This document shows, one piece after another, positions 1,217-64,000 of a stretch of DNA of 64,000 nt. This stretch comes from Pisaster brevispinus. Lineage: Eukaryota > Echinodermata > Asteroidea > Forcipulatida > Asteriidae. A program made the translations under genes and the position numbers. The stretch spans positions 682,001-746,000 of the forward strand of contig JAMKCF010000007.1 of NCBI GenBank assembly GCA_023634235.1. The letters run 5' to 3'. Below the pieces are notes generated by a model. That model did not search any database, was not told where the DNA came from, and saw only the letters and a list, made by a program, of their open reading frames with translations. The first letter of the stretch is position 1. Every line of letters begins with the position of its first letter.

Positions 1217-2977
1217 ATGTTTCTGCTCATTCTTGTTATGACTTCGATCTGTGGGTTGGGTGAGGCGACACTTTTCCAGACTCACCCAGTTGACACTCTC
1301 GCCTTGTCGGGTGAGCGTGTACCATTGACTTGTACACTCCAACATGTGCAATGTGGCGAACATGGAACTTATGAGTTACGCTGGCAACGAGGAGTGACCA
1401 CCGCACCAGAAAACAATAGTTTCATTTTTAGCGGCACTTCAACGTATAGAAATTTCACAGGGATGGAGAGGTATAGGGTCCGGTCTGTTGCCTGTACGTG
1501 GACTTTATACATACGGATTGTAAATCAAACCGATGGAGGCAGATATTACAGCTGCTATGTCAGCAAGGTGAAACCGTCTTCACAAAGAACGGATAAATTT
1601 CTAAAGTAGCGAGCCTGACTGTAGTCGATCCGATAGACACTACTGTCATACCGTCTCAGATTGAGAGTTACGTGGGTCAAAATGCTACATTTCGTTGCCA
1701 GACTAGTCGATTGACAACGTATGACTTACAATTCAGTTGGCAAATGCAAATGCAAATGCAAGACGCATCTTGGTCAAGAGTAGAGAAGAAAGACTGGATG
1801 GTTAAATTTAAAGACGATGGAAAGAGCATGACTCTGAGGTTAGATATGGGGATGAATGGTTCTAAGGTAAGATGTGGAGTGCGTATTTTGCGATCATCGT
1901 CATTCAAATGGGCCAGAAAAATTGGTTGGATAATTGTTTCACCGAATGATGAGGGAACCATCGAAACTTCAACAGACTTGGTGACAATGGAACCAACACA
2001 ATCACTCACAGATCCTCTTCTAATAAGCGACGCTGAACACATAACGAGTGAGCAGTTAGATCAGCAGTCAAAACCAGCTGCACCCCAGACCCCATCCCCT
2101 CTACCAACCAAGAAGCCAGACCCTGATCCTCTGAGTAGCAACCCTTCTTCAGGATCTACGGACTCTGCAGTCATATTAGTAGGAGGAGCTGTAGGAGCTG
2201 GTTTCTTATGTCTCATCATTGTAATCCTCCTGTACTTTCTTGTCTTCAGAGGACGATCTCAATTCAAGGCTATTGATAAGCGTAAATCTCACACACCTCA
2301 AGATGGTGGAGGAGAAAGTGAAGCAGACGGGGTATCAGAAACCCAACTGCACAGAGTCACTCTGAGGTGTGGACAAGAAACTGACCACACTAGCTCTGCA
2401 GGTCAGAGGTCAGTTCAGTTCCCGAGTGAAACAGTTATTGTTGTAGCGACACCAGCAGGCAGAGACAAAACATGATCAAGACGGTGCGGACAAACCTCTG
2501 TCCACTGAAACTGATGGATCAGTCAATGATGGGGAGGAGAAACGGATTGATACTCAGAATCATCATGAGTCCATGTATGCTGTGGTGGATAGCAGTCGCG
2601 CTAAGTACACAGCTACGACCGTGAGTATTTATTCTAAACATGAAATGCCGTCTGAGCATCAGAAATCAACCGTCGCTGTCAAGGATTTTCCGGTACCAGG
2701 ACGCGTCGTTGACCGTCAACCGTCCGGTCAGAAACCCCCTCGCGTCATTCCGTACCGTGTCTCCAAACGCCGAGCGAGCACCGCAACCCAAGCCCTGGCC
2801 GCGCAAGAGCAAACGGCAGACCGTGGTGAGGACGGTCTCGTCAAGGATGACCCAAGACAGAGGAATGTGGAAGGTCTGATCTACGCTGACTTGGATCTAT
2901 CACGAGGATCGGCAAGAGTCATCAACACGGAGGAGGAGACGGTTTATGCTGACATAGGATACAAGAAGGTGCTGTAA
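1217..2977 (+). pseudogene. Type 1 Ig receptor A, long ITIM tail, two frameshifts
   Basis: Homologue of intact receptor C at 15851. It has a signal peptide, a first Ig domain with four cysteines, a second Ig domain with the MNGSKVRC motif, a Pro-rich stalk, a transmembrane helix near 2160-2250 and a long tail. The tail carries three ITIM/ITSM-like tyrosines: SMYAVV, LIYADL and TVYADI. Frame is lost twice. Near 1595-1600 one base is missing relative to C, giving a stop after DKFLK. Near 2449 about 11 bases are missing relative to paralogous tails, giving a stop at 2475; the rest of the tail is open to 2977. A six-base slippage repeat (CAAATG) makes QMQMQMQ at 1741-1761 where paralogues have QIQ. 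ATG at 1217 matches all paralogues; the ATG at 1187 only extends through leader sequence. Probably a pseudogene, though a sequencing or allelic frameshift cannot be excluded. Confidence 0.8.
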
Positions 2978-3690
2978 AACTTCCGGGTTAGTAAACCCAC
3001 GAATCAAAAGGCAATGTGTCTTTAAGCTCAAAATCAACTCTCGAATGATAATATTATCTAATAATGTCTATTACTCTATAATTGTCATAATATTGGATAG
3101 TTAATGTTTTTCTGAATCTAAATTATTTAAAAGGGACGCTTAGAGCGTAGAAATAGAGAAGTTCAGAGTCAACCGCTACTTCATTAACAAACTACGCACG
3201 AATTAGAACTTAAGTCTCGTGTGCGGTTTTTGTGTTTCGCATGTCAAGCATCACATTCACTACTCAGTTACCAGTTATTGACTAAGTACTCGCTAATATC
3301 GACACATTATGCAAAGCTGTTTTATTTAAATTTGTGGAACTCGTTAAAAAAAATGACATCAGTTTAATACAAGATATAGCTTTTTATAGCTCAGATTATT
3401 TTCATCGGACTGACAGTCAAAATCAACCACTCCCTGCAGATTTGTTTCACTTATAATGTTTGGCAATAGAAAATTTATCACACTGCATGGCATTGAATAA
3501 AGTCGATTCTAATAGCAATCATTTCCTTGAGAACATTAATGTTGTCTTTCACAGGAAGCGGAAATGAATTATGACCTGATCTTCTCAAATGTCAATAAAC
3601 TTGGATGACACAAAACTGCAAGTTAAGACAGAAAAACGGATTTTGAGGACGAGGTTGTCCTCCTAGAAACTCCTTATGTGGAGAATGATT
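2978..3690. other. 3' flank of receptor A, duplicated after receptor C
   Basis: Non-coding. It aligns with 17627-19110 downstream of receptor C (shared phrases CTCAAAATCAACTCTCGAAT and GTTTCACTTATAATG), so the duplicated unit extends well beyond the coding region. No gene seen. Confidence 0.6.
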
Positions 3691-3735
3691 TATGACGCGG
3701 AGGTTGGACTCGAACCCACGACCTTCCACTTAATA
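3690..3735 (-). repeat. tRNA-derived SINE fragment (box B only)
   Basis: On the minus strand GGTTCGAGTCC (3706-3716) is a perfect Pol III box B with flanking T-arm-like sequence. No convincing box A is present. Related copies lie at 19110-19155 and 36890-36960 in paralogous flanks, so it was present before those duplications. Not a functional tRNA. Confidence 0.45.
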
Positions 3736-3754
3736 TATGAACATTCTAAAAACT

Positions 3755-3970
3755 GACGGGGCAGAATTGACCCAGATTCCTGGTCTTTAGGCCCTGAGCC
3801 ATTTCTCGGTCAGTGTGACCAGGAATCATTGTCAAACTGACCCAGAAATGGGTCAAACTGACAAAACCGAATTAAAATCTCCTTTGATTCAAAACCAGTG
3901 TCCGTGTCAGCCTGACCCAAGAGTGGTTCAAGCCCCACTGGGACCCGGAATCTTGCTCAGTTCTGCCATG
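3755..3970. repeat. Repeat rich in TGACCC / GGGTCA half-sites
   Basis: Several TGACCC or GGGTCA hexamers in both orientations, including the perfect hairpin TGACCCAGAAATGGGTCA near 3839. A second copy lies at 19168-19388. The hexamer resembles nuclear-receptor half-sites, but it may simply be the internal structure of an old repeat. Confidence 0.4.
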
Positions 3971-3989
3971 GAGTGTTTAGAGTGTTAAG

Positions 3990-5165
3990 GGGCCTATGTA
4001 TTTATCCAACATTTTATCGATTCGTTTAATCAGGAATATTTCCAGAAAAAAATTGCTAAAGTTGTTTAAATTAAATAAAACACGTCCACAGGATAAGTAT
4101 ATGCCATTTTCTTTATTGAATACTTGTTTACAAAGTTGGAGAAGTTACGACATAAGCATTTATAGTCAATTGTGTGATTTAATACTTTTCATATTGGTGT
4201 AATCAGTCTGGATTTTGTCCTGGGCAAAGTACCGCTCATGCTATGCTAGATTTGTATAAACATTTAACAGACCCTTTCCAAGCTTCTACATAGGTGTCTT
4301 CATGGACTTGGTTCTGCTGGTCATGATTTCTTGCTTAATAAGCTCAATTATTATGGGACTTGGTGAGTTTCACTTAATGTGTGTGTCTCTATCTTAACAA
4401 GCTTAGCCAGTATGTTCCACTGAACGGGCTGAATCCAACCATCGAGGTCCCCCAATGCTCTACACTTGGACCGTTATTATATTACATTGATGTTAATGAT
4501 ATGCCAATGTGTTGTTCGGTTGTAAAAGCCCCCCCCCCCTTTTTTTTGATGACACAACTCTTCTTGCTTCTGTGAATGAATGGAAGGAATTAGCTTTTTG
4601 GGGGAAACATAGATTGACTGGTTTTAAAAGACTGGCTTAGAGCTAATAGGTAAAAAGTGCACCCAGATAAAACGTATTGTATACATGTTATTCTTCCAGG
4701 CAAAATGAAAGGTGGTTACCTGATATATTGTTATTGCTATTGTTCGTTTGAAAATATTTTTAGTACTAGACTTTTAGGTTTTAAAACTGATACAAATTTG
4801 CTCTAGAAGGAACAGATATCCTATGTTTCTAATAAAGTACCCATAGTTAAATACATGCTTAAAAGAGAACCAAAATACTTACTAGGATTGAGAATAGTAT
4901 TTCTGTCTACAGCGCAAAGGTTAATTCCTATTTAAGTTACAGGGTTTTAGCATTGTGTGGTTTGTTTAGAATTGATCTATCTTTCTTTGATAGGATTATT
5001 TCACGTCTAAAGGAATGAATTAGGAATGCCTACCATGCTAAATACAAAGCCCATACTTCACCTATTTGTTTTACAATTTAAAAATTCTCCAGAGGGAGTT
5101 GATGATGTTAAGTTTGGTTTACCCTTTTATGATGGTTATGAATAATTTCATAACCTACTTCCTGA
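3990..5165 (+). mobile_element. Decayed LINE reverse transcriptase (CR1/Jockey-like)
   Basis: Reverse transcriptase fragments in shifting frames, in normal order. These include SLLNT near 4110, a QSG/F-like segment followed by STAHAMLDLY at 4200-4260, QYVPLNG near 4408, VPQCSTLGPLL near 4450 (normally VPQGSTLGPLLF), NDMP near 4495 and DDTTLLAS near 4545. These are the RT motifs of non-LTR retrotransposons of the CR1/Jockey/L2 group. Frameshifts, stops and a poly-C run (4530-4540) show it is dead. A shorter copy is at 19400-20020 in unit 2. Confidence 0.65.
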
Positions 5166-5635
5166 AAACTTAATCAGTGACTTTTGTTTTCGTTGAACCA
5201 AGACACTCATTCGTATACTACCCGCCAAAAATGACCACATCCATTTTCATGGTACTTGTAGACACGGCATTGCATTGGCTAATTATAGATACGTTTTGTC
5301 TACCATTGTCAATTCTCTTCCACCTCTCTAAAGACGTGACTAAGCGAACTTGTCTAAAATGGTGTTCACGAGGCAATAAACGGAATTTTATTTGTACAAG
5401 TACATGGATTTCCCTGGTGCTAATCTTAACTGTTTTCTAGCCCGTATAAGGAGCTGGGCAATATGTACTCTTAGTTTTACATTGCTATTGTATGTATTAA
5501 ACCCCTGAAGGAACTTGCCTTCAATTTGTATTGTGTTTTTCCAACTGATATAACTGTATGTTCGTAATTGCTATAATCTACTTGATCAAAATTTGACAGC
5601 AGTCTTGGGTGCTCCACTACAAAAAGCCCTTCTCT
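5166..5635. other. Unresolved sequence between LINE relic and foldback element
   Basis: No convincing gene. The right half (about 5340-5635) is also present at 20020-20320 in unit 2, with the same order of LINE relic then foldback element. Confidence 0.4.
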
Positions 5636-7883
5636 AAGGGCGATCATTGGGGCCAAAAAAGACAATTACAAAAATATATAGATTGCCAGAAATAAATCAA
5701 TCCCAAGAAATATAAATCAATCCCCATAAGTATTTCAATCACCAGAAGAACATCAATCCCTTAAATATATCAATCCCCAGAATAAACCATTCCCCAGAAA
5801 TATCGATCCCGGAAATATATCAAGCGGCTCAGGATACGAGTGATTTGCTATGCGGTTATTTTGTACACGGCCTATGAAGCAAGCGGAATCCACTATACGA
5901 GTTTATTTATAAATTATGGATTTGAAGCGCCCTATCAAGCGCCTGAAAGAAGAAGTTTGCCAGAGTTTTAAAATCACCACTTTAAAATTTGAATGAAGCA
6001 ATATAGTTTTATTTTAAAATAACACCGAAAATAGACCGATTGCGCGACCAATGTCACAATACCTATAGTGGGTGTAAAACATAAACAAAACAAGGCGTCC
6101 TCCATAGGAAGGTGCCGTTGTTGTAACTTACGTGATGATTGTTTTATTTTGCTTATTTTGAGACTTTTCTGTCTTGAAATACCGGTAAGTGCAGAATATT
6201 TCAGAGTCTGTAACATACCGGTGGTTCTGATGGAAATGTTCCAGCAAGTATTGTAAATTTAACAATGAATTAATCTTTTTATAAGTTCACGAATTTCACG
6301 ATCGACCGCATTTTTCAAAACAAGAATGTCAAAACTTTGAAGCTGAAATCATCTCAAAGAAAAAGGCTTTCCAAAACTGTTAGATTAATTTGTCTATTTG
6401 AAACTAAGTAAGACTAAACGCTTACCTTTCCAATGATTTATTTTCAGTTGGCAGAGAGACTATTAAGCTACACCGATTATACAACTCACTTATCCTTTGC
6501 CATAGCCCTATATAACTGTTGTTTCTGCCTTCCGAGGAATGTTCAAGCATTCTTGAGGCGTATCTAAGAGTCTCCTTGCCTTTGTTCACTCACTTTAGGC
6601 TCTCGCACGCATGCTATACACTCTTCTCAATCATTTCTAAATTTAACGTCAATGCTACACCTAAACAAGACTCAATTTCGATGAAGGAGAACAAGCTCGC
6701 GTCAAAAGAACTAAGCAAGTTGGGAACTTCGAATACGGCGGGAAGCTAGAAGTAGCGCTTGACAAATTCAAATTTGCCCTTTTCAGCAAATGCGATGTCG
6801 ACTTGGTAATCGAAGCAGTGCAGGAGGCCAAGGACTTGATTGCCAAAAGGAAGAGAATTAAGATCAGAATAGCCGACGGGAGCAAGCCGGCTGGACCACG
6901 GTTGAACAGCTCGATAGAGCAGCTCAAAAGCGTCAGAGTCGCAGAGGAAGAGGCCGTAAAAGAACTTGAACAACCGATATGGCGCAGGGGTCTTTCTACC
7001 CACAGTCCATCCCTCAAGATCTTGCTTCTCGCCGTCTTTTTCATACTTTGTTAGTTCAATCTGCATATCGTGGATGCAGCCCTGTCCAATACTTGTTGAT
7101 TAAAACTCTTGTCGTCCCACGCCGGTTGCATAACTCAAATAAAACCTCTCTGTGGTTGAATTTAATACTGCCAATTCATGAAACAGTAATGGGATTACAA
7201 CAATGTCGCAACATACAACTTTAATACAAGGGCTTAGCAACTCTGTTATTATTTTCCACAAACAAACATTTTGAAAACTGGTTTTCTGCAAAAAAAAACA
7301 CGAAAAAAACAACACACTTTTTTTAACAAAACCCTAATTATGAGGAAAAAAACTATCCATGGTGAAAATCAAATCAGAATGAAAACCCAAATATTTTAGG
7401 AGGGGAAGTGGAAAAGACTTTGTCACACAGTTAACCCTCTCCCCAAAATCATGAAAGTCCGCAAAATTAATATTTGCAATGGTGGACCCGGGGTATGGTT
7501 AGTCTTGTGCCTTGGGGGGGGGGGGGGGACTCCACGTCTAACGCTCGTATAGCGGGTTCAACTTGTTCCATATGCCGTGTACAAAATATCCGCATAGGAA
7601 ATCACCCGTATCCTGGGCTGCTTGATAAATTCCCGGGATTGATACATTTCTGAGAAATGATTTATTCTGGGCATTGATATATTTCTGGGAATTGAAATTT
7701 TTATGTGGATTGAAATGTTTCTGGGGATTGAAATGTTTCTAGGGATTGATATAAATCTGGGCATTGATATATTTTGGTGATTGAGATATTTCTGGGGATA
7801 GATTTATATTTCTGGGGCTTGATTTATTTCTGGGAATCTCTTTATTTTTGTAGTTGTCTTTTTTTCCAAAATGGCCGCCCATA
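5636..7883. mobile_element. Large foldback element with minisatellite arms
   Basis: The left arm (about 5639-5904) reappears inverted at about 7544-7883. Each arm contains a degenerate 17-18 bp minisatellite of the type ATATATCAATCCCCAGAA. The arms end outward with a match to CAAAAAAGACAATTACAAA and inward with GTACACGGC..CTATACGAG. About 1.6 kb lies between them, including a coding-like segment at 6680-6960. A deleted relative is at 20320-21435. The structure resembles foldback DNA transposons; no transposase was recognised. Confidence 0.6.
6680..6965 (+). pseudogene. Coding-like cargo segment in foldback element, frameshifted
   Basis: Homologous to the 87-residue open frame at 20729-20992, but a deletion and frame change after LASKELSKL break it. 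The downstream frame reads IEAVQEAKDLIAKRKRIKIR, then ADGSKPAGPR. It is rich in Lys/Arg/Glu and likely helical. It may be the remnant of a gag-like or other transposon protein; I do not recognise it firmly. Confidence 0.3.
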
Positions 7884-9020
7884 TTCTCTATAGTTACATC
7901 AAGTTCTAGGAAACAGGAATAGATACAAGTTTCTAATTATAAAACAAATTATGCCAAATTGAACACACCTTTCTGATATTTCGTCTGGACATAAAGTATA
8001 CAGGGAAACACAACCCAAACTAAAAGCACACTGACTTCTATAGCTGCTCAAAAGTCATGTGGGTAATTTGTTTTCGTGTATATCGATAAATGATTAGTTA
8101 AACTCCGACAGGCAAATATCTTACCAGTGGAATCTTGCATACTATTTGGCTACGGATAAAACTTTACTTTCCGAGCTTAAGCAAAGGGCAGAATCATCTT
8201 CTGTTTATAATTTTGTGTTAAAAAAAAAAAAATCAAATAAATAATAATAATCTGTCTAAATGTTAAGCTACAACAAGAGTGAGAAATGTGTTTGAATTTC
8301 AGTATAGATCACTCAAACAGCAAAATCCGATTTGGAAGATTGTGCTAAATTATAAATCTAAAGTTAACTTGCTTTTCTATACAAGTATAAATTCCAAACA
8401 TTTTGTGTAGTGATGCTTTATTAGCATTGGCTGTTGCACTGGTTTGCATTTCTAAATCTGAACTGATTTATAGACTGACTCGTCATAGGATCTCTGGTTT
8501 CCGGACTGTCCCAGACGAGGTTGACTAAATTACAAGACGAATTATACAAATACATAGACCAATAATGGCAAGAACAACATGTAAACATCTTAACCGTTGA
8601 GTTGAAATGAATTGAAAAATGCAATCCTTCTCACATGAATCATCTGAAAGTGAGTGATTTTTTGGGGTAAAAATATTCAATAAAACAAAGAAGAAGTAGT
8701 CGACAATTAGAAATAAAGCAAAGTTTATGTTTTTTTTTTATTCGGTTTCCTGCTATTTGCCTCTTACATATGTATGCTTTATCTATATCCGTTGAATACG
8801 CTTACTGTTTGCTGGCGAATAAAATGAAATGAAATGATAATAATGTCAATACAAATATGTCAATCTACGTTTGATCTTTTTATTGAAATCATCAATTCAA
8901 ACAAGTTGAATCTTGCGTCAACATAGAGAGAAGACTGGTCGGGGAAATGTTTCAATGTGCAATTGTTGACAACCCTAATGATGTTGTTTACAATAATTGT
9001 ATGTAGGCCCAGACATGCTT
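7884..9020. other. Duplicated intergenic segment upstream of receptor B
   Basis: Non-coding. Aligns with 21435-22270 in unit 2 and partly with 31840-34220 in unit 3 (for example GAATCATCTGAAAGTGAGTG and CAAATTGAATCTTGCGTCAA variants). A poly-A run lies at 8220. No gene supported. Confidence 0.55.
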
Positions 9021-9021
9021 A

Positions 9022-9176
9022 GGAGAGCTACATTGTGGGCTTTCCACAGGTGTTGTCTATGATCCCTTTTCTTTAATCTTTCCTGTTAAAAACATTGTGG
9101 GCACAGCCCCACAATGTAACAAAAGCCCACAACTGCTCATCCTACCTAAAACTCACCCCACAATGTATCTCTCGTC
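9022..9176. mobile_element. Small MITE present only in unit 1
   Basis: The paralogous site at about 22262-22275 lacks this segment: GTATGTAGGCC runs almost directly into TGGGATATAACGG. The insert ends are imperfect inverted repeats around GAGAGCTACATTGTGGG and its complement near 9157-9172, and ACATTGTGGG recurs internally. This fits a short non-autonomous DNA element of about 150-175 bp. Confidence 0.5.
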
Positions 9177-9700
9177 CGCCAATTGGGATATAACGGACGT
9201 GCAGACATAGAATTACACAGAGGCCACGGGGTGGAGGTCATGACCTCTGTTGCCCCTGGTTTTGGACTTGGTACCCAATTAACAGTTTCTCATAGACTTT
9301 AGCCTACAATTTTCCAATGAGCGTGCCGTTTGTAAACTTAAATTGGCTTTGTCATCTTAAAGTTGACATTCCAAGCATGGATGTGTTTGAAATGTGACAC
9401 TAATAATAAACTGACACAAACAAATATTTACTCAAGAGACATGTAAGGAATTAAATTTGATTAGTTCATTTAAAACGAGTGGTTCAGCTTATATTTGATC
9501 ATGTTGTTTAATTAACTTTCCTCCATGCGAGACGAAATCATAAAAGATGTATGGTCAAATTGGGATTTAAGTACAAATAAAAAAAAGTTGTTTCCGTAAA
9601 CCAATTGGCCAAAAAATGATTTATAGTTTCGTGGTAAAAAGTAAAGCGGAAGTTGGGAGAAAAAAACCACCTGTTTAAAAAGCAATCTTCAAAAAGCTTG
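9177..9700. other. Distal promoter flank of receptor B
   Basis: Non-coding. Aligned with 22270-22810 (upstream of D) and 34290-34760 (upstream of the 35012 relic), so it is the conserved type 2 upstream region. Confidence 0.5.
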
Positions 9701-9707
9701 TTTTTAT

Positions 9708-9714
9708 TATAAAA
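9708..9714 (+). promoter_or_regulatory. TATA-like element, type 2 receptor B
   Basis: TATAAAA in a segment conserved upstream of all three unit-type 2 genes (also 22818-22824 and 34769-34775), about 235 bases before the ATG in each. Conservation of position supports it. The start site is unmapped, and the distance implies a long 5' UTR or a second start site. Confidence 0.35.
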
Positions 9715-9890
9715 CCCGTACTTCATTGACAACGGATCGAGGTTTTATCAGTGTTTTGGTTAAGTTTGAAGATGACTTGAAGAATCTATGGATGAAAACA
9801 ATTAGATTTTGAATCTAATCGTTGCTTGGTGTAAAACATTAAGTACTTTGGTTAGGTTTTAATTTGTGACTTGAGTTCATAGCACTGTGA

Positions 9891-9944
9891 ACACGGCAGT
9901 TTGCTGTTAATTCATCGCTCAGTCTACTCGTATCAACAGCTACA
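9891..9944 (+). promoter_or_regulatory. Conserved pre-ATG leader, receptor B
   Basis: Same leader as at the other receptor starts: GCAGTTTGCTGTTAATTCAT then CAACAGCTACAATG. Likely 5' UTR. Confidence 0.5.
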
Positions 9945-10982
9945 ATGTTTCTGCTCATTCTTGTAATGACTTTGATCTGTGGGTTGGGTGAGGCGACACT
10001 TTTCCAGACTCATCCAGTTGACACCCTCGCCATGCGTGGAGGAGATGCATCCTTAAGCTGTAAACCAGTAAATGAATTTTGTGGAGGGCATCTGATTGTA
10101 TACTGGCAGCGCGGTCCTAACATAACACCGAAATGGAATAAAACCATTTTTAACGGCCTCGATGTTTCTAGAAACTTTACCGGTAGAGAGAGGTATACCG
10201 TGTCAGTTAGCGACTGTACATGGACTTTACGTATAGAGGACATTCAACCAGTAGATGGAAGATATTACAGTTGCTATATCAACAATGGGTATTCCAAAGT
10301 AGCAAGATTGATTATTGTTGATCCGATAGACACTACTGTCTTACCGTCGCGGATTGATAGATACGCGGGTGAAAATGCCTACTTCAGTTGCCACACGCAA
10401 CCACTCGACCAGCACGGTCTGGAATACACTTGGGATGTGAAAACACAGGGAAGCTCTGAATGGGAAGAATTGTTGGAGAAGAATACTAGGATTGAATTTC
10501 ACAATAACAAGACTATCATGACAATGGTTAGGTTGGGATTAGAGATGAATGGTTTCAGGGTCCAATGTTCAGTACACAATGGATTGTCGTCATGGCCAGG
10601 AATAAGACACAATGGCTGTTTGTTTGTGCACTCAACACCATCTGCACCCCAGACCCCATCCCCTCTTCCGACCAAGAAGCAAGATCCCAATCCTGTCAGT
10701 AGCAACCCTTCTTCAGGATGCACGAACTCTACAGTCATCTTAGTAGGATGGTCACTAGCTGCTGTATTCATCAATCTCTTCTGCTCATCTCTGGTGTACA
10801 TTATCGTGACCAAAATACGATCCAAAGCCAATCATAATTTAACCCGTGTAGTTCAGACAACTCAATATGATGAAGATGGAAACGCATATAAGGAATTGGA
10901 AACCCAACTACATGGGCAAGCTGCTTCTACTGGCCATAAAGAAACTGCACCATCCATCTATCAAGAACTGATATTTAAGTAG
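9945..10982 (+). CDS. Type 2 Ig receptor B, two Ig domains, short tail
   Basis: Intact 345-residue type I membrane protein. Signal peptide about 1-17. Ig domain 1 (about 18-125) has canonical C39/C110 with W54 and DGRYYSC, plus an extra pair C46/C91 (SDCTW). Ig domain 2 (about 126-225) has C149/C208 with W163 and EMNGFRVQC instead of DxGxYxC. A Pro-rich stalk precedes one uncharged transmembrane helix (about 264-288). The short tail has Y315 (AYKEL) and Y339 (SIYQEL, matching the ITIM consensus S/I/V/LxYxxI/V/L). The 24-residue spacing is too long for an ITAM. Family knowledge: ITIM tyrosines recruit SH2 phosphatases in vertebrate inhibitory receptors; such a role here is inference. No introns are needed. 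A polyadenylation signal AATAAA lies at 11409. Confidence 0.85.
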   Translation: MFLLILVMTLICGLGEATLFQTHPVDTLAMRGGDASLSCKPVNEFCGGHLIVYWQRGPNITPKWNKTIFNGLDVSRNFTGRERYTVSVSDCTWTLRIEDIQPVDGRYYSCYINNGYSKVARLIIVDPIDTTVLPSRIDRYAGENAYFSCHTQPLDQHGLEYTWDVKTQGSSEWEELLEKNTRIEFHNNKTIMTMVRLGLEMNGFRVQCSVHNGLSSWPGIRHNGCLFVHSTPSAPQTPSPLPTKKQDPNPVSSNPSSGCTNSTVILVGWSLAAVFINLFCSSLVYIIVTKIRSKANHNLTRVVQTTQYDEDGNAYKELETQLHGQAASTGHKETAPSIYQELIFK

Positions 10983-12240
10983 TATTTATTTTAAAGAGTG
11001 GGGCTTTCCCTAACTTTACTCATCACAAAACGAACACACTGTAAAAGACTGAGGTCAAATTCTCAAGTAAGCAACGCAAAATCATTTCCGTTTTGTCAGA
11101 GATTATTTGAAGGTCGCTTTGAAAGTTTATTTAAAGTGTTGTAGTGGTGATTGTAAGGGTCATACATTCCTACTTAATACATCATTTCAGATAATGCAAA
11201 CTTCGCTACTTGTTATAATAGGAGATATTGCAGAACAGAACCCATGTTCATTTCAATAATAACTTACCTTGCATTGTACACTTAATTTTATTCCAAAGTT
11301 ATGTTTCATACCAAATCATATCCATTTCACTGCTTTAAGCACCCAAGTAAACACTTAATGATACAAATCTTATGTTAAGTTTAAAGCTTTGCATGATGTA
11401 AATATAATAATAAATACACTTATATTGCTAGTAAATTTTGTGAGAGTCTTATGAAGACCACTAAAGTACACTCATTGAAACGTCGAAGTCAAATTGCCGG
11501 CTGTTCTCAGAGTCACATACAGTGTTCATGTTTTGTTTGATCCACCATATACGTGAAATAACAAACCGGTGAAAATTTGGGCTTAATCCATTGTGTGAGT
11601 CAGGAAAAAAAAAACAATGTAAAAATAATGCACAGTTTTCAGCATGTAAACACATTGTGTTTAATTTTGGTTGCAACATAAAAGTAGAACAGCCAATTTA
11701 CCTCTTGCATAAAGGTTTTAAGATACAATTTTCACAAATATGTGACATCGATTCGAAGGGGAAACATTGCACAGAAAAAATATATTTTGACCATAAACAA
11801 TAAGCGTTTAGACTAAAATTATTCAAAAATGTTTTTTATTCTTACCGATCCTGTAAAAATACCAGTAAGGAATTAATTTAATATTTATTTAATTTAATGT
11901 GAGGATAATAGCCTCTTGGCTCGGTCCTTTACACCACGGACTTGGCCCTGCCGGTTAGAAATGGCACTTGTAGACCCCCTCGTCACTCTTGTTTTCCATT
12001 TTAGTCAGAGTTACTTCTTTAATTTGATAATGATTCAAGCTAAAAACTTATGATACATTAGTTGGTCCCATGACAATGAAGTCAACGTATATGGAGATGA
12101 TTTTTAATTTTTTCCTCTGAAATAATTTGGATAATGATGCAAATTATAATTTCATTAGTCTACCAAGAAAAAAAGAAAATAAAACAAGCTGTTTAAGTTT
12201 TACTTCATTTGGGTTTGGGTTTGAACAAAGAAAAAAACAA
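10983..12240. other. 3' flank of receptor B
   Basis: Non-coding. The proximal part (about 10990-11260) matches the 3' flanks of E (38640-38860), F (46300-46500) and the 35012 relic (35600-35830), with phrases such as AACGAACACACTSTGAAAA and CAGATAATGCAAA. The rest is AT-rich. No gene supported. Confidence 0.5.
11409..11414 (+). terminator. Candidate polyadenylation signal of receptor B
   Basis: AATAAA about 430 bases after the stop codon at 10982. Its position alone supports it; the hexamer is common in AT-rich DNA. Confidence 0.2.
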
Positions 12241-12246
12241 CTGATG

Positions 12247-12306
12247 TGAGCGGGACTTGAACCAACGACATCCGCACTAACGTACCGGCGCTCTACCAAC
12301 TGGCCT
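12247..12306 (-). repeat. tRNA-Asn-derived repeat, decayed copy
   Basis: Reverse complement carries a box A-like AGTTGGTAGAGCGCCGG and a box B-like GGTTCAAGTCCCGC, preceded on the + strand by TTTGAACAAAGAAAAA. Same family as the complete foldback element at 53509-53716. It lacks the recognisable right inverted arm. Confidence 0.5.
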
Positions 12307-14340
12307 TGTAAAACACTTTACAACACAAATGACATCAATATATGTACAAGCTTCCATCAAACAATTACTGTTGTTTTATCAAACATTTTATGTTAAAACT
12401 ATTTACCACGAAATTAAGGAGTTATCAATGATTGGAATAATGTTTAACGATTATCCATAAATAATAATCAAGAATTGGACGGTGTTGTAAATCATTTTGA
12501 AATGAAATATTATTCCAGATATCTGCTAAAGTTACGTATACAGAATCGAACACGTTGCATATGATATCAAGAAGTTAATATGTGGTTTAACCCTTACACC
12601 GATGAGTGTCAATCACTGACATATACTCAGTACTTTCAAGAGTCCTGTGAAAAAAAGGCACAAACAAATACTTGAGTGGAAGTTCAATTAACATTAATTT
12701 TAATAACAAAACCACATTATAAATGACGTTCTCGGCTGACATTATTGTTGTGATTACTTTGTTATGTTTTCCATTATTATATGTATTATAACCAAAATCA
12801 TGTTTATTAGTAATTCACAAATTTAGGTGAATTGAATTGAAATGAAAGCAAGTTATAGTTTTGTCTTCACTCAAGTAATCTAAAACGTTGTTTCGTTGTT
12901 TTGTCTGCATTTTTTTTCTGTTTTTTTTTGGTGTTATTTTGGTAATTTAAAACGATGAGACTATAAATTGAAATACTAAAATTTAGATTGTACGGTAACT
13001 CTTTACACTTCAGAGGAATTAGTTCTTTCTTGAATTCTCGTCCTTTTTATGTTAAATACAACTTTGTGATTACAAATTGCCGCAAGATTCATTAGTTTTT
13101 GTCCCGTGTGCTTGCTTCATCGTTTTTTACACATGATCCGTGAGGTCTCAAATATTGCATTTGATGCTAAACTATTATTCCAATGACAGTCGAGGAAGCA
13201 AAGACAATTTTAGTTAAATTTAGCAATTTGTAGAATCACACTGGAGACTGTTTCCTGGATTATTGTTTCAGTTCTCTACACATGATATTGCATCGTAAAT
13301 ATTATTAATAACCAAACCTTAATTATTAAGTCAAGTGACGTAAACGGATTAATGCATATATTGTGACGAAAAGGTTGTAAATGCATTATTTTAGTGCCTT
13401 TATCATTCCATAATGTTGGTTTATTCAATATTCGGCTTCCAAGCTATCGTTTTACATTGAGACGCATTTGATGTTTGATTTCATATATTTATATACACAG
13501 GAAAGATATATTTATTGAGATCTAAAATATAAGAATACAAAAGAGGGATAGACATATGCGTTTCAACTGCAATGGACGTAGAATTAAACACACAAATGAT
13601 GTCACATTAGATCCGGGAACTACTCAAAATTAAATCCGTAATCAATGTCACGTGACATACAAAATGATTGTTGTGGTTATTGTTCTATAAAGCCATTGAC
13701 TGGTCTGATTTCATTCACAATATTGGTTGGTTTATTAATAATGTACGTTGTTTTAGTTTTATTTACTGTTGAGCGCAAATGAAATATTCCGCAATAGAAC
13801 ATGATTACTATAGTAGTATTCTTTTGAATGTGTTGTTTTCAGTCTGGCTCCAATAACATAATAACAATACATTGTCAATAAAATGTGATCTTGAAACATT
13901 TAAACCTACACAAATAACCATTGCAGTCACTGGACAAAACATAATAACAATATTTTAATAACGAGAAATAACATAATAAATAAAGAATGTAGCAGCAAAG
14001 CTTAAAACCTACAACTGTACAACCTTTGTCTTAAAATTACGTTAAGTATAATTGTCTAAATGTTGTTTATGATAAAATACATGCTGAGATGACAAATAAT
14101 ACTCAGTTCTTGTCTTCATCCTTCCACCTTCAGTCGACTTTGCCGTCCACAACGCATATTATAATTATTATCCTGATTAAAACAAACGGATGTATATGTC
14201 CAAAAACATTTAAAAGAGTAAAAAAAAAAAACCAAAACACGCACAAAAAACAAACAAACAACAACAACAACAAACCTGGGCATAAATATAAAAAAGAAAC
14301 GGTTTTCATGGTAACAATAAAGTAACACTTGGCGAGTCAG
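12307..14340. other. Duplicated AT-rich intergenic segment (unit 1)
   Basis: Homologous to 24830-26900, 40920-43300 and 59150-61700 (shared phrases include TGAGGTCTCAAATATTGCAT, CAAATTGCCGC and ACCCTTACACCGATG). It contains a CAA microsatellite at 14260-14274. Open frames here are not preserved in the paralogous copies, so I call no gene. Confidence 0.55.
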
Positions 14341-14760: not shown

Positions 14761-15700
14761 TCGGATTTATTACATTTTACCTGAACCTAAGCGGAATACA
14801 CAATTAATATGTCTCTCATGAGACATGAGACCTACGGATTCTATTTGAATCACCCACACGCAACTGATGGTTGCCAAGGAGGCATGGAAACATGTTATTG
14901 CTATACAGAGAGGATCTGAAAAAAATATCTTCACGGTCTCTCCCAAAAAATCCACCCTCTCACACATTTGTCAACATTTCCTCTGGTCCTGTCTATGTTT
15001 GTCAATTACCCCGGTCAATCCGACCAAAAATACAAACATGATACCCAGACGTAAACCATACCCATAAAACACGTAAAGCACAACTGTACAGTTTTATGTA
15101 AATCTCATGTCAACAGTGTGGAGCGTCACCGAATGGGACAGCGCCATCATTTATCTATAAAAAACACCCAAAACAACAACACACGACAGACTAATCTATT
15201 AAGGAAATACACAAATCGTTTAAGGTAGAGCCATAGAGTGGAAAATTCACAAAGAATTAATGACCATAAAAAACTTACTTGAGGATAAGCACTGCAGCTG
15301 TTGATAGTATAAACTATTTTGAGAAAAGATTCCCTTCGAAGCAATATGGTAGGACACAATTTTGCCCCAAAACATTTGAATCTGAGAACCAATTAATGCA
15401 TGAATCGTTTCTAAGATTTATGTTGGTTGGTGTCCGTTTTCCATCGCTATGGCCAGATATATGGTTGGTACCCGTTCTTACCTCGCTAGTTAAGGTTCTT
15501 GTGAAAATACCATGACAGTTTAATGTTGTTTTCTCAGCAAGTAGACAGTGTATTCAGCTGCAACTTTCACATGTGACTTTTATTGTATCTTTCTTAATAA
15601 TGTTGTCTATGAATCAGCATAACGATGACACAAAACGGTCTGTGACCAAACCTTTAAAGTCTTCTTTTCGCCAAGAATAATTGAAATCGTTTCCTGGATT
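14761..15700. other. Upstream region of type 1 receptor C
   Basis: Non-coding. Closely matches 43995-44935 upstream of F and 62760-63280 upstream of G, so this is the conserved type 1 upstream region. It contains a short palindrome TCTCATGAGA near 14814, kept in the copy at 44057. Confidence 0.5.
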
Positions 15701-15710
15701 GAGGGTTTCA

Positions 15711-15716
15711 TATAAA
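15711..15716 (+). promoter_or_regulatory. TATA-like box, receptor C
   Basis: TATAAA within TTTCATATAAAGCTAATT, 140 bases before the ATG. The identical element precedes receptor F (44946-44951). It is TATTAA before G and decayed before pseudogene A. Confidence 0.4.
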
Positions 15717-15800
15717 GCTAATTATCTTCAACAATTCTTTATTTGAATTGAGTTCTCGATTGACTCGTCCTAGGATCTCTGGTGTTCACCATATCAATGT

Positions 15801-15850
15801 GAAGACTGCAGTTTGCTGTTAATTCATCGCTCATTCTATCAATAGCTACA
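15801..15850 (+). promoter_or_regulatory. Conserved pre-ATG leader, receptor C
   Basis: GACTGCAGTTTGCTGTTA then TTCATCGCTCATTCTA, ending in AGCTACAATG. Slightly shorter than in the paralogues (CACGTATCAAC reduced to TCAAT). Likely 5' UTR. Confidence 0.5.
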
Positions 15851-17626
15851 ATGTTTCTGCTCATTCTTGTTATGACTTTGATCTGTGGGTTGGGTGAGGC
15901 GACACTTTTCCAGACTCACCCAGTTGACACCTTCGCCTTGCCAGGAGAAAGTGTATCCTTGACTTGTACACTTCTAAATGTACAATGTGACGAACAAGGA
16001 ACTTATCAATTGCGATGGCAACGAGGAGTGACCACCGCACCAGAAAACAATAGTTTCATTTTTAGCGGCACTTCAAAGTCTAGAGAATTCACAGGGATGG
16101 AGAGGTACATAGTCTATTCCACTGACTGCACGTGGACTTTAAATATACGGAATGTAGATCAAACCGATGGCGGCAGATATTACAGCTGCTATGTCAAGAA
16201 GGTGCAAACGTCTTCACAAAGAACGGATGAATACTCCCGAGTAGCGAGACTGACTGTAGTTGATCCGATAGTCACTACTGTCATACCGTCTCAGATTGAG
16301 GGATACGTGGGTCAAAAAGTAACATTTCGTTGCCAGACTAATCGATTTACAACGTTTGACTTACAATACAATTGGCAAATACAAAGGAAAGATGCTGCAT
16401 TTTTGTGGTCAAGAGTAGAGAAAAAAGACTGGATGGTTGAATTTAAACAAGATTGGAAGAACATGACTTTGAGGTTAGATATGGGGATGAATGGTTCTAA
16501 GGTGAGATGTGCAGTGAGTATTATTAACAGATCTGTGTCATTTAAATTTGCCAGAAACGTTGGTAGGATAATTGTTTCACCGAATGAGGAAACCATCGAA
16601 GCTACAACAAAATTTTTGACATTGGAACCAACGCAATCACTCACAGATCCTCCTCTAATTAGCGACGCTAAACGAGTAACGAGTGAATTGTTAGATCGCC
16701 AGTCTACCCCACCTGCACCCCAAACCCCATTCCATCTACCAACCAAGACGCAAGATCCCGACCCTGAGATTATCAACACGTCTGAAGAAGTCATGGACAT
16801 TACGTCAAATACGTTAAAACTAGACCGACAGTCAACGCCATCTGCACCCCAGACCCCATCCCCTCTACCCACCAAGAAGCCAGACCCTTATCCTGAGAGT
16901 AACAACTGTTCTTATTCAGCTGAAGAAGTCATGGAGATTACGTCAGATACGCTAAAACTAGACCGACAGTCAACGCCATCTACACCCCAGACCCAATCCC
17001 CTCTACCCACCAAGAAGCCAGACCCTTATCCTGAGAGTAACAACTGTTCTTATTCAGCTGAAGAAGTCATGGAGATTACGCAAGACACGCTAAAACTAGA
17101 CCGACAGTCAACGCCATCTACACCCCAGACCCAATCCTCTTTAAAGACCAAGAAGCAATATCCCAATCCTGACAGGAGCAATCCTTCTTCAGGATCTACG
17201 GACTCTACAGTCATCTTAGTAGGAGGAGCTGTAGGAGCTGGTTTATTAGTTCTCCTCATTGTAATCCTCCTGTACTTTCTTGTCTTCAGAGGACGATCTC
17301 AATCCAAGACTATTGATAGACGTAAATCTCACACACCTCAAGATGATGGAGGAGAAAATGATGCAGATGGGATATCAGAAACCCAATTGCACGGAGTCAC
17401 TCTGGGGTGTGATCAAGAAAATGACTACACTAGCTCTGCAGGTCAGAGGTCAGTTGAGTTCCCGGGAGAAACAGTTCCTGCTGTAGCGACATCGGATGAC
17501 CCAAGACAGAGAAATGTGGAAGGTCTGATCTACGCTGACTTGGATCTATCGCGAGGATCGGCAAGAATCATCAACACGGAGGAGGAGACGGTTTATGCTG
17601 ATATTAGATGCAAGAAGGTGCTGTAA
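15851..17626 (+). CDS. Type 1 Ig receptor C with repeat stalk and ITIM/ITSM tail
   Basis: Intact 591-residue type I membrane protein and the best complete type 1 member. Signal peptide about 1-17. Ig domain 1 has canonical C39/C113 with W56 and DGGRYYSC, plus an extra pair C46/C93. Ig domain 2 has C161/C220 with W175 and MNGSKVRC. The long Pro/Ser/Thr stalk (about 245-452) contains near-identical repeats of 43-46 residues (start codons of units at 16694, 16823, 16961, 17099). Uncharged transmembrane helix about 454-478. The tail has Y561 in LIYADL (ITIM) and Y582 in TVYADI (ITSM form TxYxxI), 21 residues apart, a spacing like vertebrate ITIM/ITSM pairs. Compared with A and D, the tail lacks the middle segment: TSD is joined directly to DPRQRN in frame. 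An inhibitory signalling role is inference. Single exon throughout. Confidence 0.88.
   Translation: MFLLILVMTLICGLGEATLFQTHPVDTFALPGESVSLTCTLLNVQCDEQGTYQLRWQRGVTTAPENNSFIFSGTSKSREFTGMERYIVYSTDCTWTLNIRNVDQTDGGRYYSCYVKKVQTSSQRTDEYSRVARLTVVDPIVTTVIPSQIEGYVGQKVTFRCQTNRFTTFDLQYNWQIQRKDAAFLWSRVEKKDWMVEFKQDWKNMTLRLDMGMNGSKVRCAVSIINRSVSFKFARNVGRIIVSPNEETIEATTKFLTLEPTQSLTDPPLISDAKRVTSELLDRQSTPPAPQTPFHLPTKTQDPDPEIINTSEEVMDITSNTLKLDRQSTPSAPQTPSPLPTKKPDPYPESNNCSYSAEEVMEITSDTLKLDRQSTPSTPQTQSPLPTKKPDPYPESNNCSYSAEEVMEITQDTLKLDRQSTPSTPQTQSSLKTKKQYPNPDRSNPSSGSTDSTVILVGGAVGAGLLVLLIVILLYFLVFRGRSQSKTIDRRKSHTPQDDGGENDADGISETQLHGVTLGCDQENDYTSSAGQRSVEFPGETVPAVATSDDPRQRNVEGLIYADLDLSRGSARIINTEEETVYADIRCKKVL
16694..17155 (+). 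repeat. In-frame stalk minisatellite within receptor C
   Basis: Three to four tandem units encoding DRQSTPSAPQTPSPLPTKK then PDPYPESNNCSYSAEEVMEI. Unit lengths are 129, 138 and 138 bases, all multiples of three, with a partial fourth from 17099. The last two full units are nearly identical, so the expansion is recent. Only one unit equivalent is present in A, F, B and the 35012 relic. Confidence 0.85.
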
Positions 17627-19109: not shown

Positions 19110-19155
19110 ATGACGCAGAGGATGGACTCGAACCCACGACCTTCCATTTAATACA
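19110..19155 (-). repeat. tRNA-derived SINE fragment, unit 2 copy
   Basis: Box B GGTTCGAGTCC on the minus strand at 19124-19134, in the same flank context as 3690-3735. Confidence 0.45.
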
Positions 19156-19167
19156 TGAACATTCTAC

Positions 19168-19388
19168 AAACTGACGGGTCAGAATTGACCCAGATTCCTG
19201 GTCTTTAGGGCCTGAGCCATTTCTCGGTCAGTGCGACCAGGAATCAGAGTCAAAGTGACCCAGAAATGGGTCAAACTGACAAAACCGAATTAAAATCTCC
19301 TTTTATAAGAACCCAGTTTCCGTGTCAGCCTGACCCAAGAGTGGGTCAAGCCTCGCTGGGACCCGGAATCTTGCTCAGTTCTGCCGTA
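19168..19388. repeat. Half-site-rich repeat, unit 2 copy
   Basis: Paralogue of 3755-3970 with the TGACCC/GGGTCA hexamers and the TGACCCAGAAATGGGTCA hairpin preserved. Confidence 0.4.
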
Positions 19389-19399
19389 GAGTGTTTAGA

Positions 19400-20020: not shown

Positions 20021-20319
20021 GTCTTAAATGGTGTTCACGAGGCAGTAAACGGAATTTTATTTGTACAAATACAGGGATTTCCCTTGTGCCAATCTTAACT
20101 GTTCAATCTTAACTAAACTTTTCTAGCTCGCATAAGGAGCTGTGCAATATGTACTCTTAGTTTTACATTGCTATTGTATGTATTAAACCCCTGAAGGAAC
20201 TATATTTGTATTGTGTTTTTCCAACTGATATAACTGTATGTTCGTAATTGCTATGATCTACTTGATCGAAATTTGACAGCAGTCTTGGGTGCTCCACTAC
20301 AGAAAGTCCTTCTCTATGG

Positions 20320-27365: not shown

Positions 27366-27369
27366 TTAT

Positions 27370-56589: not shown

Positions 56590-58150
56590 TTATCTTGAGA
56601 ATGACACACTACTGTCTCAGTGCACAATGGATAATAGACAAGGCTATTGATGTGTGCATCCAGGTAAAAAAATCAGAAGAATCACTGCAGATTAATGGTG
56701 ACGTCAGACCCATTTCCATCTAGAGGTCCAGAAGTCTCTACCGTCATCTTAGCAGGCTGGCCTGTAGCTGGCATTTTACTTATTCTCCGCATTGTAATCC
56801 TCCTGTACTTTCTTGTCTTCAAAGGACGATCTCAATCCAATACTATTGTAAACCCTGAATCTAGCTGTCATCACCAGTAATTATTTTAAGAATAATTGTC
56901 CCTATTAGAAACACAGCCTCCTTCCAACCTTAACCCCATTATCCCCAATTATCAAGCTTCCGTCCACTTCCTTGACCATGCACTCAAGCCCATAAATGTC
57001 CACTTAAATCACCCAGGTGGTAGGCCCACCTGATACACCCATCGACCTGCACTGACCACCACTATTATTCGGTCAGTGACCAAGATTTACCAATCCTCTA
57101 TATATTGTCCATATAGTTTAATTCTTAGTTCATTCTCTGCTTTTCTCGGTAGTCTGGTTAGCCCATGTGGCCCAATCCAGTTTTCTTTTCATCTAACCAC
57201 CAGCCAGAAAGAATACAATAAAATACCGATACAGCCCAGTATACAGTACGTGTCTGCCTTCCTCTTTCTGTCGTCTACTGTATACCTGTAACATTTAGTT
57301 ATCGGCCGCTCAAGTAGCACACAACAATATCTTGTGTTACACTATTGATAAAACGTAAATCTCACACACTTGATGATGGAGGAGAAAGTGATGCAGACGT
57401 GATATCAGAAACCCAACTGCATGGAGTCACTCCGAGGTAGGTGTGATCAAGAAAATTACGACACAAGCTATGCAGGTCAGAGGTCAGTTCAGTCCCCTAG
57501 ATAAACATTAACTGTAGCAGTGGCATCGGACTTACACCAGCAGACAGAGACAAAACATGATGTGGACAAACATCTGTCCACTGAAACTGATAAATCAGTC
57601 ATTGATGGGGCAAAACGCACTGATTAACAGAATCATCGAGAATCCTCGTATGCAGTGGTGGATAAAAGTCGCGCTAAAAGTAAGACATTGAGAGCCATTT
57701 CAACTGGCGGAGCATCTTGGAAAGTCTCCAGAGGCTGGAAGGATGGGTCGAAGCTGAATCTTAGAACAGACACAGCTCAGACCTTGAGTAGTTATTTCAG
57801 ACATGATACTCCGTCTGAGCATCAGAAATCAGCCGTCGATATGAAGGATTTGCCGGTACCAGGACGCGTTGTTGACCGTCAACCGTCCGGTCAGAAACCC
57901 CCTCGCGTCATACTGTACCATCTCTCCGAGCGAGCACCGCGACCCAAGCCCAGGCTGGTGTAGAGCAAAGCGGCAGACCGTTGTGAGGGCGGTCTCGTCA
58001 AGGTTGACCCAATGCCGAATAATGTGGAAGGTCTGTTCTACGCTGACTTGGATCTATCACGAGGATCGGCAAGAATCATCCACACGAAGGAGGAGACGGT
58101 TTGTGCTGACATTGGGAACAACAAGACTGTGGGTAAGCTGAGGGAGTAGA
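56590..58150 (+). pseudogene. Second transmembrane/long-tail receptor relic, split by an LTR
   Basis: Paralogue of 38862-40000. It has a domain 2 remnant (near 56600-56700), a transmembrane segment STVILAGWPVAGILLILRIV at 56738 (with an Arg) and the start of the tail. A 495-base solo LTR then interrupts it, and the tail continues from 57342. Tail frames are broken. The 57655-57963 frame covers SRAKSKTLRAIS to HLSERAP. The ITIM region is near 58036-58110, and the final motif TVCADI has lost its tyrosine. Non-functional. Confidence 0.75.
56847..57341. mobile_element. Solo LTR with 4-bp target duplication
   Basis: Begins TGTAA and ends TTACA (five-base terminal inverted repeat with TG..CA ends). 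Flanked by CTAT on both sides (56843-56846 and 57342-57345). Paralogous tails have a single ACTATTGATA here. Contains TATATAT near 57099 and AATAAA near 57217. Fits a solo LTR of a Ty3/gypsy- or BEL-like element; orientation is tentatively +. Confidence 0.75.
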
Positions 58151-62597: not shown

Positions 62598-62757
62598 CTT
62601 ACGGATCCGGTTTGTGGGGTACTGCTATTGTTGTTCTATTGTTCCCTTTTCTAAAGAATTCCCTTGTGGGGCCCTATTGTTCCTATTGAAATTGCCTTGT
62701 GGGGTCCATTGTTCCATTGTTAAAAGTACCCCGTAAGTTGGCATGTGTAAGGGCACA
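62598..62757. repeat. Third copy of the CA-linked 165-bp repeat
   Basis: Shares CCTTACGGATCCGGTTTGTG, CTATTGTTGTTCTATTGTTC and GTAAGTTGGCATGTGTAAGG with 28551-28712. It replaces the ordinary type 1 upstream sequence at this point. Confidence 0.7.
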
Positions 62758-63288
62758 CGACAGGCTTATCTATTTAGGAAATACACACAACTTTAAAGGT
62801 AGGGTCATAGAGTGGAAAATTCACAAAGAATTAATGATCATAAACAATTTACTTTAGGATGAGCACTGCAGCTATTGATAGTATACACTTTTTTTGAGAT
62901 AAGATTTCCTTCGAAGCAATATGGTAGGACACAATTTTGCCCCAAAACATTTGAATCTGAGAATCAATACATGCGTGAATCGTTTCTCAGATTGTGGTTG
63001 GTTGGTGTCCGTTCGCAATTTCTTATGGCCAGAGATACGGTCGGTACCCGTTCTCACCTCGCTAGTTAAGGTTCTTCTGAAAATACCATGAAAGTGGTTA
63101 ATTTCTCAGCAAGTAGACACTGTATTCAGCTGAAACTTTCACAAGTGACTTTTAGTGAATCGTTCTTTATAATTTTGCCTATGAATCAGCATAACGATGG
63201 CACAAAACGATCTATGACCGAACCTTTAAAGTCTTGTTTTTGCCAAGAATGTAACTTAATTGAAATCGTTTCCTGGATTGAGGTTTCA

Positions 63289-63294
63289 TATTAA
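63289..63294 (+). promoter_or_regulatory. TATA position of receptor G, variant TATTAA
   Basis: TTTCATATTAAGCTAATT where C and F have TATAAAG. The variant may weaken the promoter. Confidence 0.25.
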
Positions 63295-63378
63295 GCTAAT
63301 TGTCTTCAACAATTCTTTATTTGAATTGAGTTCTCGATTGACTTGTCCTAGGATCTCTGGTCTTCACCGTATCAATGT

Positions 63379-63434
63379 GAAGACTGCAACTTGCTGTTAA
63401 TTCATCGCTCATTCTGCACGAATCAACAGCTACA
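63379..63434 (+). promoter_or_regulatory. Conserved pre-ATG leader, receptor G
   Basis: GAAGACTGCAACTTGCTG, TTCATCGCTCATTCTGCACG, CAACAGCTACAATG. Confidence 0.5.
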
Positions 63435-64000
63435 ATGTTTCTGCTTATTATTGTTCTGACTTCGATCTCTGGGTTGAGTGAGGCGACATTTTTCCAGACT
63501 CACCCAGTTGACACTCTCGCCTTGCCCGGGGGAAGTGTATCCTTGAGTTGCACTCTACAACAAATACGATGTAGAGCCAAAGGAACTTATGAGTTACGCT
63601 GGCAACGAGGGTTGACCACCGCACCCGAAACCAATAGTTTTATTTTCAACGGCACTTCAACATATAGACATTTCATTGGGATGGAGAGGTACACTGTGCA
63701 TTCCAATGGTTGTACGTGGACTTTACACATAGGGAATGTGGATCGAACCGATAACGGCAGATATTACAGCTGCTATGTTAGCAATGTGCAAACGTATTCA
63801 CAAAGAGCGGATGAATACTCCCGAGTAGCGAGACTGACTGTAGTTGATCTGATAGACACTACTGTCATACCGTCTCAGATTGAGAGATGCGTGCGTCAAA
63901 ATGCTACATTTCGTTGCCAGACTAGTCGATTGACAACGTATGACTTACAATACAATTGGCAAATACAAACAAAAGACGCATCTTGGTCAAGCGTAGGATG
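63435..64000 (+). CDS. Type 1 Ig receptor G, 3' end outside window
   Basis: Open from the ATG to the window edge (about 188 residues). Signal peptide MFLLIIVLTSISGLSEA, then a full type 1 Ig domain 1 (CTLQQIRC, TYELRWQRG, GCTWTL, DNGRYYSC) and the start of domain 2 (ATFRC, YNWQI). Closest to F, including the SLSCTLQ-IRCRA segment. Domain 2 has RCVRQN where the paralogues have RYVGQN, adding an unpaired cysteine just before the first canonical one. Stalk, transmembrane helix and tail type are not visible. Confidence 0.8.
   Translation, partial: MFLLIIVLTSISGLSEATFFQTHPVDTLALPGGSVSLSCTLQQIRCRAKGTYELRWQRGLTTAPETNSFIFNGTSTYRHFIGMERYTVHSNGCTWTLHIGNVDRTDNGRYYSCYVSNVQTYSQRADEYSRVARLTVVDLIDTTVIPSQIERCVRQNATFRCQTSRLTTYDLQYNWQIQTKDASWSSVG

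Follow-up and report, generated by a model that had tools for sequence, protein, structure and literature searches.

The stretch of Pisaster brevispinus DNA analysed here (64,000 nucleotides of contig JAMKCF010000007.1, hereafter the window) carries a tandem array of immunoglobulin (Ig) receptor genes. Eleven paralogous pieces of one receptor family were mapped by open reading frame (ORF) and homology analysis, six open and five broken, all on the + strand (Table 1), in agreement with the copy count and the tandem receptor family proposed in an earlier reading of the letters alone (the sequence-only reading). The five complete open frames comprise 338 to 591 residues of uninterrupted coding sequence, and five ORFs of at least 300 amino acids (aa) were observed, compared with 0 in 20 mononucleotide shuffles. 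These frames encode, in order, a signal peptide, a V-set domain, a second Ig domain (Ig2), a Pro/Thr-rich stalk, an uncharged transmembrane helix and a tail, except that c23 is without Ig2 and stalk, and hydropathy peaks were found in 5/5 of them at the N-terminus and once preceding the tail, the latter peak containing no K, R, D or E. The earlier description of one or two Ig domains, an uncharged helix and a tail within a single coding frame was thereby borne out for the complete open copies; "single exon" refers to the coding frame, and an intron in the 5' untranslated region (UTR) may exist. Base composition (GC 38%, CpG observed/expected 0.68, against values near 0.2-0.3 in vertebrates) gave indirect support to the invertebrate host that had been read from the letters.

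Table 1. Receptor copies, duplicated blocks and shared stretches in the window. P-numbers denote proteins from searches beyond the window.
Feature	Position	Strand	Description
Block 1	582..13742	+	A gene c1 and B gene c10 with spacers; colinear match to block 2
Block 2	15183..26802	+	A gene c16 and B gene c23 with spacers
c1	1217..2977	+	Class A ectodomain, long tail; broken, frame breaks near 1600 and 2450-2470; SMYAVV, LIYADL, TVYADI
c10	9945..10982	+	Class B; V, Ig2, short tail; open, 345 aa; V-set E 7.7e-10
c16	15851..17626	+	Class A; V, Ig2, repeated stalk, long tail; open, 591 aa; 138-bp stalk repeat 16782-17156
c23	23058..24215	+	Class B V joined directly to transmembrane helix and long tail; open, 385 aa
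c31	31483..31833	+	V-only remnant of a further class resembling P0005; leader lost; broken
c35	35012..35597	+	Leader fused to second half of Ig2, then stalk and short tail; broken
c38	37607..38623	+	Class B; V, Ig2, short tail; open, 338 aa
c39	38945..39894	+	3' fragment of long-tail copy (transmembrane helix and tail); frame-broken
c45	45092..46282	+	Class A ectodomain, short tail; open, 396 aa
c57	56716..58131	+	Long-tail fragment; broken; insertion near 56848-57341; last motif tyrosine lost (TVCADI)
c63	63435..64000	+	Class A; open; cut by window end
Leader stretch, c16	15798..15925	+	-53 to +75 of ATG; ~130-nt block, putative anchor
Leader stretch, other copies	1164-1291, 9892-10019, 23005-23132, 37554-37681, 45039-45166, 63382-63509	+	Same block as in c16
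Stalk stretch, c16	17097..17221	+	Putative anchor; counterparts start at 2057, 10629, 35248, 45926

By profile and fold the family belongs to the immunoglobulin superfamily, V-set: five of the six open copies scored above the Pfam cut-off, with c23 just below it (24.1 vs 26 bits), and the predicted V domain resembles an antibody V domain. The ectodomain model of c45 (pLDDT 59 overall) was fair in V only, the whole-protein model was too weak for use (pLDDT 46), and a Foldseek search with the two-domain ectodomain model placed mainly antibody chains on top, mostly at TM-scores of 0.35-0.43, so that the structural claim is confined to V. As judged by eye, c31 and P0005 both lack the stretch bearing the first V-domain cysteine, and may represent a V class without the canonical disulphide.

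Two kinds of tail were distinguished, a long one with SMYAVV, LIYADL and TVYADI (in order, two immunoreceptor tyrosine-based inhibition motifs, ITIMs, and one resembling an immunoreceptor tyrosine-based switch motif, ITSM) and a short one with YEEV or YKEL followed by SxYQEL (c10, c38 and c45). The exact long-tail set was found in c1 and P0013, with single changes in P0014 (third motif TLYADI) and P0015 (second motif LVYADL); c16 has lost the first motif through a deletion, c39 keeps the last two in one frame with SMYAVV in another, c23 has SMYALV, LQYANL and SIYADI, and c57 has SSYAVV and LFYADL before its altered third motif. The ITSM consensus, TxYxx(V/I), is matched by TVYADI in c1, c16, c39, P0013 and P0015 and by TLYADI in P0014, and not by the third motif of c23 or c57 or by the short tails of c10, c38 and c45. 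The ITIM consensus (S/I/V/L)xYxx(I/V/L), as given in the available text of PMC2442602, is present in the tails of 5/5 complete open copies (c10, c16, c23, c38, c45), where the sequence-only reading had placed ITIM/ITSM-like motifs. Against shuffled tails, motif counts gave p values of 0.011 (c16), 0.007 (c23) and 0.07-0.13 (the three short tails); the conservation of the motifs from copy to copy is the stronger evidence, and the short-tail ITIM could have arisen by chance. An alternative in which the proteins work in adhesion and their tyrosines recruit Src- or Grb2-type adaptors is unlikely, although it carries some weight, since YEEV occurs in the short tails, inhibition is not proved by motifs alone, and among solved structures c45 is closest in sequence to the adhesion protein contactin-2 (E 2e-6), though c10 is closest to an antibody light chain; it is opposed by the absence of charged residues from the transmembrane helix and by the second and third long-tail motifs, which start 21 residues apart in c1, c16, c23, c39, P0013, P0014 and P0015.

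Protein searches returned 15 proteins, of which 14 were counted as relatives and one, P0012, was rejected by eye as a multi-Ig-like protein with a bacterial look. P0013 (547 aa, one frame) combines a diverged ectodomain (27-31% identity to c10, c16, c38 and c45; 48% over 29 residues to c23) with the same long tail (60-75% identity), and the mixing of ectodomains with the long tail therefore extends outside the window. P0001 (399 aa), a long open relative, is 71% identical to c45; the two match up to AYEE, and the end of P0001 after residue 372 is unrelated, being either a different exon or a rearranged copy. Scans of genome contigs with the A4 query and of viral contigs with the reverse transcriptase frame yielded 18 and 5 pattern matches, respectively, with no relative in either case.

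The genes are mosaics. Their ectodomains fall into class A (c1, c16, c45, c63) and class B (c10, c23, c38), their transmembrane and tail segments into long (c1, c16, c23, c39) and short (c10, c38, c45, c35), and all four combinations are present, A-long in c1 and c16, A-short in c45, B-short in c10 and c38, and B-long in c23. Trees were built from 8 rows each, the ectodomain tree without c35, c39 and c57, and the tail tree without c57 (insertion) and the tail-less c63 and c31, and the two conflict strongly. Making the short-tail genes a single group in the ectodomain tree cost 160 log units (approximately unbiased test, AU, p 5.9e-33), and forcing class A or class B together in the tail tree cost 169 (p 3.0e-8) and 190 log units (p 3.5e-50), respectively; because the groups were chosen after the divergence comparison had been seen, these p values do not come from a blind test.

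Two stretches are shared across these divisions, one at the leader and one in the stalk preceding the transmembrane helix. In the leader, 0 of 116 gap-free sites were fixed between four A and three B copies, with 29 variable, compared with 66/299 in V (Fisher 7e-11; variable sites only, 2.5e-6). Silent divergence, estimated with wide bootstrap ranges, was 0-0.20 in the first 25 codons versus 0.84-1.51 in the two V halves over nine A-B pairs, and 0.71-1.20 in Ig2 over the six A-B pairs having that domain. In 25-base bins, computed for six of the twelve possible A-B pairs, identity downstream of the ATG was 84-100% at 0 to +74 and 24-72% at +100 to +249, and upstream was 58-96% at -50 to -1, 42-68% at -75 to -51 and 20-52% at -150 to -76. 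Beyond about -53, c38 and c10 have unrelated upstream flanks, which indicates that the same edge was a breakpoint more than once; a segment of the c38 flank, inside 37056-37293, is similar at 69% to 24343-24589, which lies downstream of c23. In the stalk, 0/107 columns were fixed for A|B or for long|short, and 3' of it 76/231 were fixed for long|short and 6/231 for A|B, in a comparison of c1, c16 and c45 with c10 and c35 (c35 counted as B by Ig2 only; c38, whose stalk is diverged, aligned but omitted; c23 without stalk).

This likeness could also reflect DNA or RNA constraint on the leader instead of exchange. A birth-and-death family whose leader, stalk and tail experience stronger purifying selection than its ectodomain, with occasional tail swaps and a leader not kept alike by recombination, would account for a leader that is alike family-wide, with nearly identical signal peptides in P0004, P0006, P0009 and P0011 as well, and for variants common to both classes being no commoner in the leader (3/116 sites) than in V (6/299). 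The 29 leader sites that do vary, none separating A from B, and the likeness of silent sites and of most of the 5' UTR part speak against it, and we consider such a history a serious but improbable competitor.

Donor-like GTGAG was observed at the end of the signal peptide in 8/8 leader-bearing copies, at the same place in all (15894-15913 in c16), with CAG 20 nt further on in seven. The site lies in phase 1, the usual phase of introns in Ig genes; the 20-nt GTGAG...CAG stretch was rejected as an intron, being too short and frame-breaking, and is possibly a relic of a lost one.

Blocks 1 and 2, of 12-13 kb with two receptor genes each, match in colinear pieces at 73-89% identity, and the array therefore spread at least partly by two-gene DNA duplication; spacer pieces recur downstream of c38/c39 and of c57. 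The short-tail copies c45 and c10 share homology downstream of the stop, at 66% and as far as +533. This is past the candidate AATAAA that c10 has at +427 (and c45 lacks), and fits DNA duplication or exchange and not an mRNA copy. No evidence was found for the retrocopied founder of the sequence-only reading. A retrocopy family, founded by an mRNA copy or by several copies retroposed separately, would explain why no introns separate the signal peptide, Ig domains, transmembrane helix and tail, and why the A, B and c38 flanks lose their kinship at similar points, 50-75 nt upstream of the ATG, but two gene pairs lie within one duplicated DNA block that includes their flanks and the 3' homology passes the candidate poly(A) signal, making this origin distinctly improbable. 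No target-site repeat was seen around c38, which was accordingly rejected as a separate retrocopy or insertion, and no retrocopy signature was found in the array; a founder retroposed long before the duplications is possible, as an ancient founder would have lost such marks.

Among the spacers, one containing a 130-aa ORF (43602-43994; no Pfam match) has further copies upstream of c16 (about 14346) and of c63 (about 62110). An 18-bp satellite (GGGATTGATATATTTCTG type) occurs in both orientations at 5686-5823, 7635-7834, 20397-20502 and 20985-21391, in spacers of both duplicated blocks. Retroelement pieces that we take to be Penelope-like lie at 48151-56259, with reverse transcriptase (RVT_1 E 3.6e-7) and 52/109-bp tandem arrays; since 50958-53454 and 53736-56259 are 97% identical, a recently doubled copy separates c45 from the c57 tail fragment. 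Inside this region a tRNA-like match was found on the - strand at 53584-53647 (Rfam RF00005, 37.4 bits), where ARAGORN found no tRNA. The proline-rich 242-aa ORF at 27389-28117 (- strand) overlaps a G-rich tandem repeat (27510-27864) and is unlikely to be a gene.

Selection keeps some of the frames open. In six aligned coding pairs, indels were in frame for c10-c38 (18, 3), c16-c45 (6, 3, 15) and c16-c63 (6), none were present in c10-c23, and the indels of 5 in c45-c63 and of 2 in the c16-c23 tail, which break the pattern, sit at cut ends; indels that were not multiples of three made up 32/37 in five upstream flank pairs, 10/13 in two downstream pairs and 5/13 in three pairs with a broken copy. 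Using the lowest flank indel rate, the neutral joint chance that both frames stay open was <=2.8e-5 for c10-c38, <=1.1e-4 for c16-c45 and up to 0.0097 for the V domain alone in c10-c23; the pairs in both the indel and the neutral-chance analysis had been picked for being open. Residue constraint is weak, since within-class dN/dS was 0.43-1.10 in V and 0.56-0.94 in Ig2; the ratio was 0.28-0.43 in V between classes and 0.22-1.07 in distal long tails. The check named in the sequence-only reading, an excess of synonymous change among open copies, gave a mixed outcome on these V ratios. The first half of V (bases 75-249) diverged more than Vc (and Ig2 if present) at p<0.01 in 3/3 class B and 3/6 class A pairs, and more than the flank at p<0.001 in 3/7 pairs having flank, and no positive selection is claimed there because silent and replacement changes rise together. 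A largely decaying array of little function is suggested by the broken copies (5/11), by the inserted Penelope-like elements and by within-class dN/dS near neutral in several pairs; the frame-preserving indels, the neutral-chance estimates and the long open relative P0001 speak against this, and we regard it as the least probable of the alternatives.

Comparison was made with known receptor systems. Amphioxus VCBP and hagfish APAR, by their general descriptions, likewise have antibody-like V domains outside rearranging receptors, and are set apart by VCBP being secreted with chitin-binding domains and APAR having a J segment. The fish NITRs (medaka), in the available text of PMC2442602, resemble the sea-star family as clustered type I receptors with one or two Ig domains, divergent V domains, ITIMs and, in inhibitory members, an uncharged transmembrane segment. 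The same text gives them separate leader, V, I, transmembrane and cytoplasmic exons, J-like motifs and an I domain with six conserved cysteines, whereas the sea-star genes are one open frame (known from genomic sequence alone), FGXG and TxLx(V/L/I) were not found in the 60 residues from YYSC onward in 6/6 open copies, and Ig2 has two or three cysteines; on the features tested, namely exons, six cysteines and J-like motifs, NITR membership fails. Mammalian CEACAM paired receptors, as far as the available text of PMC2832619 describes them, combine gene conversion with swaps of cytoplasmic parts (ITIM versus other tails) between exons, and are similar in that one part is kept alike while cytoplasmic parts swap; they differ in that the part kept alike is mostly the N exon, which binds ligand, and in having exons as modules, whereas in the sea star leader and stalk are alike, V differs and all lie in one frame. 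Hydractinia Alr, by the descriptions available, are likewise clustered invertebrate Ig-superfamily receptors, there for allorecognition, with pseudogenes (PMC11067881) and reported ITIM-type motifs (PMC12065747). The Botryllus fester co-receptors (FcoR), in the available text of PMC12065747, are a similar clustered family, also for allorecognition, with V-type Ig, a transmembrane segment and alternative tail motifs (ITIM or hemITAM, some swapped by splicing), but have a sushi domain and two C2 domains; no sushi match was obtained in the scanned sea-star frames, and membership fails on that feature. In the open-access papers searched, judged by title and start of abstract, no intronless ITIM Ig array in an invertebrate was described among the matches listed.

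We read the array as a germline-diversified tandem family of single-frame type I Ig receptors for inhibitory recognition, shaped by block duplication and exchange, and give this reading a probability of roughly 0.6. Two-gene block duplication would create the copies, and homologous exchange, gene conversion or unequal crossing-over at two sites, the stalk before the transmembrane helix and the leader (from -53 to about +75 relative to the ATG), would keep these stretches alike while re-sorting diverged ectodomains against the two tail kinds. The V domain would bind a variable ligand (self marker or microbe), and phosphorylated LIYADL and TVYADI, at their fixed spacing, would dock an SHP-type tandem-SH2 phosphatase and so inhibit the cell, with the short tail giving a weaker or different signal; an immune or self/non-self role is plausible from the architecture. 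Several points given above weigh against this reading: the contactin-2 match of c45, shared variants that are not enriched in the leader and constraint as a possible cause of its likeness, the possible chance origin of the short-tail ITIM, the selected pairs and the higher c10-c23 value in the frame analysis, the weak residue constraint within classes and the ratios in distal tails, and the number of broken copies.

A more far-reaching version is offered tentatively and is, on balance, doubtful: a single-exon cassette system, in which recombination would be anchored at leader and stalk and would exchange antibody-like ectodomains and inhibitory tails again and again. If it is true, one array makes new recognition-to-signal combinations in the germline, and an intronless gene does what exon shuffling does in vertebrate paired receptors.

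Inhibitory Ig arrays are best known from vertebrates and, recently, from hydroid and tunicate allorecognition loci. One that is intronless and bears ITIM/ITSM-like tails in another, apparently invertebrate lineage would mean that such arrays depend neither on the shuffling of domains as exons nor on a vertebrate immune setting. It would also provide a simple test bed, as a single amplicon from genomic DNA could cover an entire receptor.

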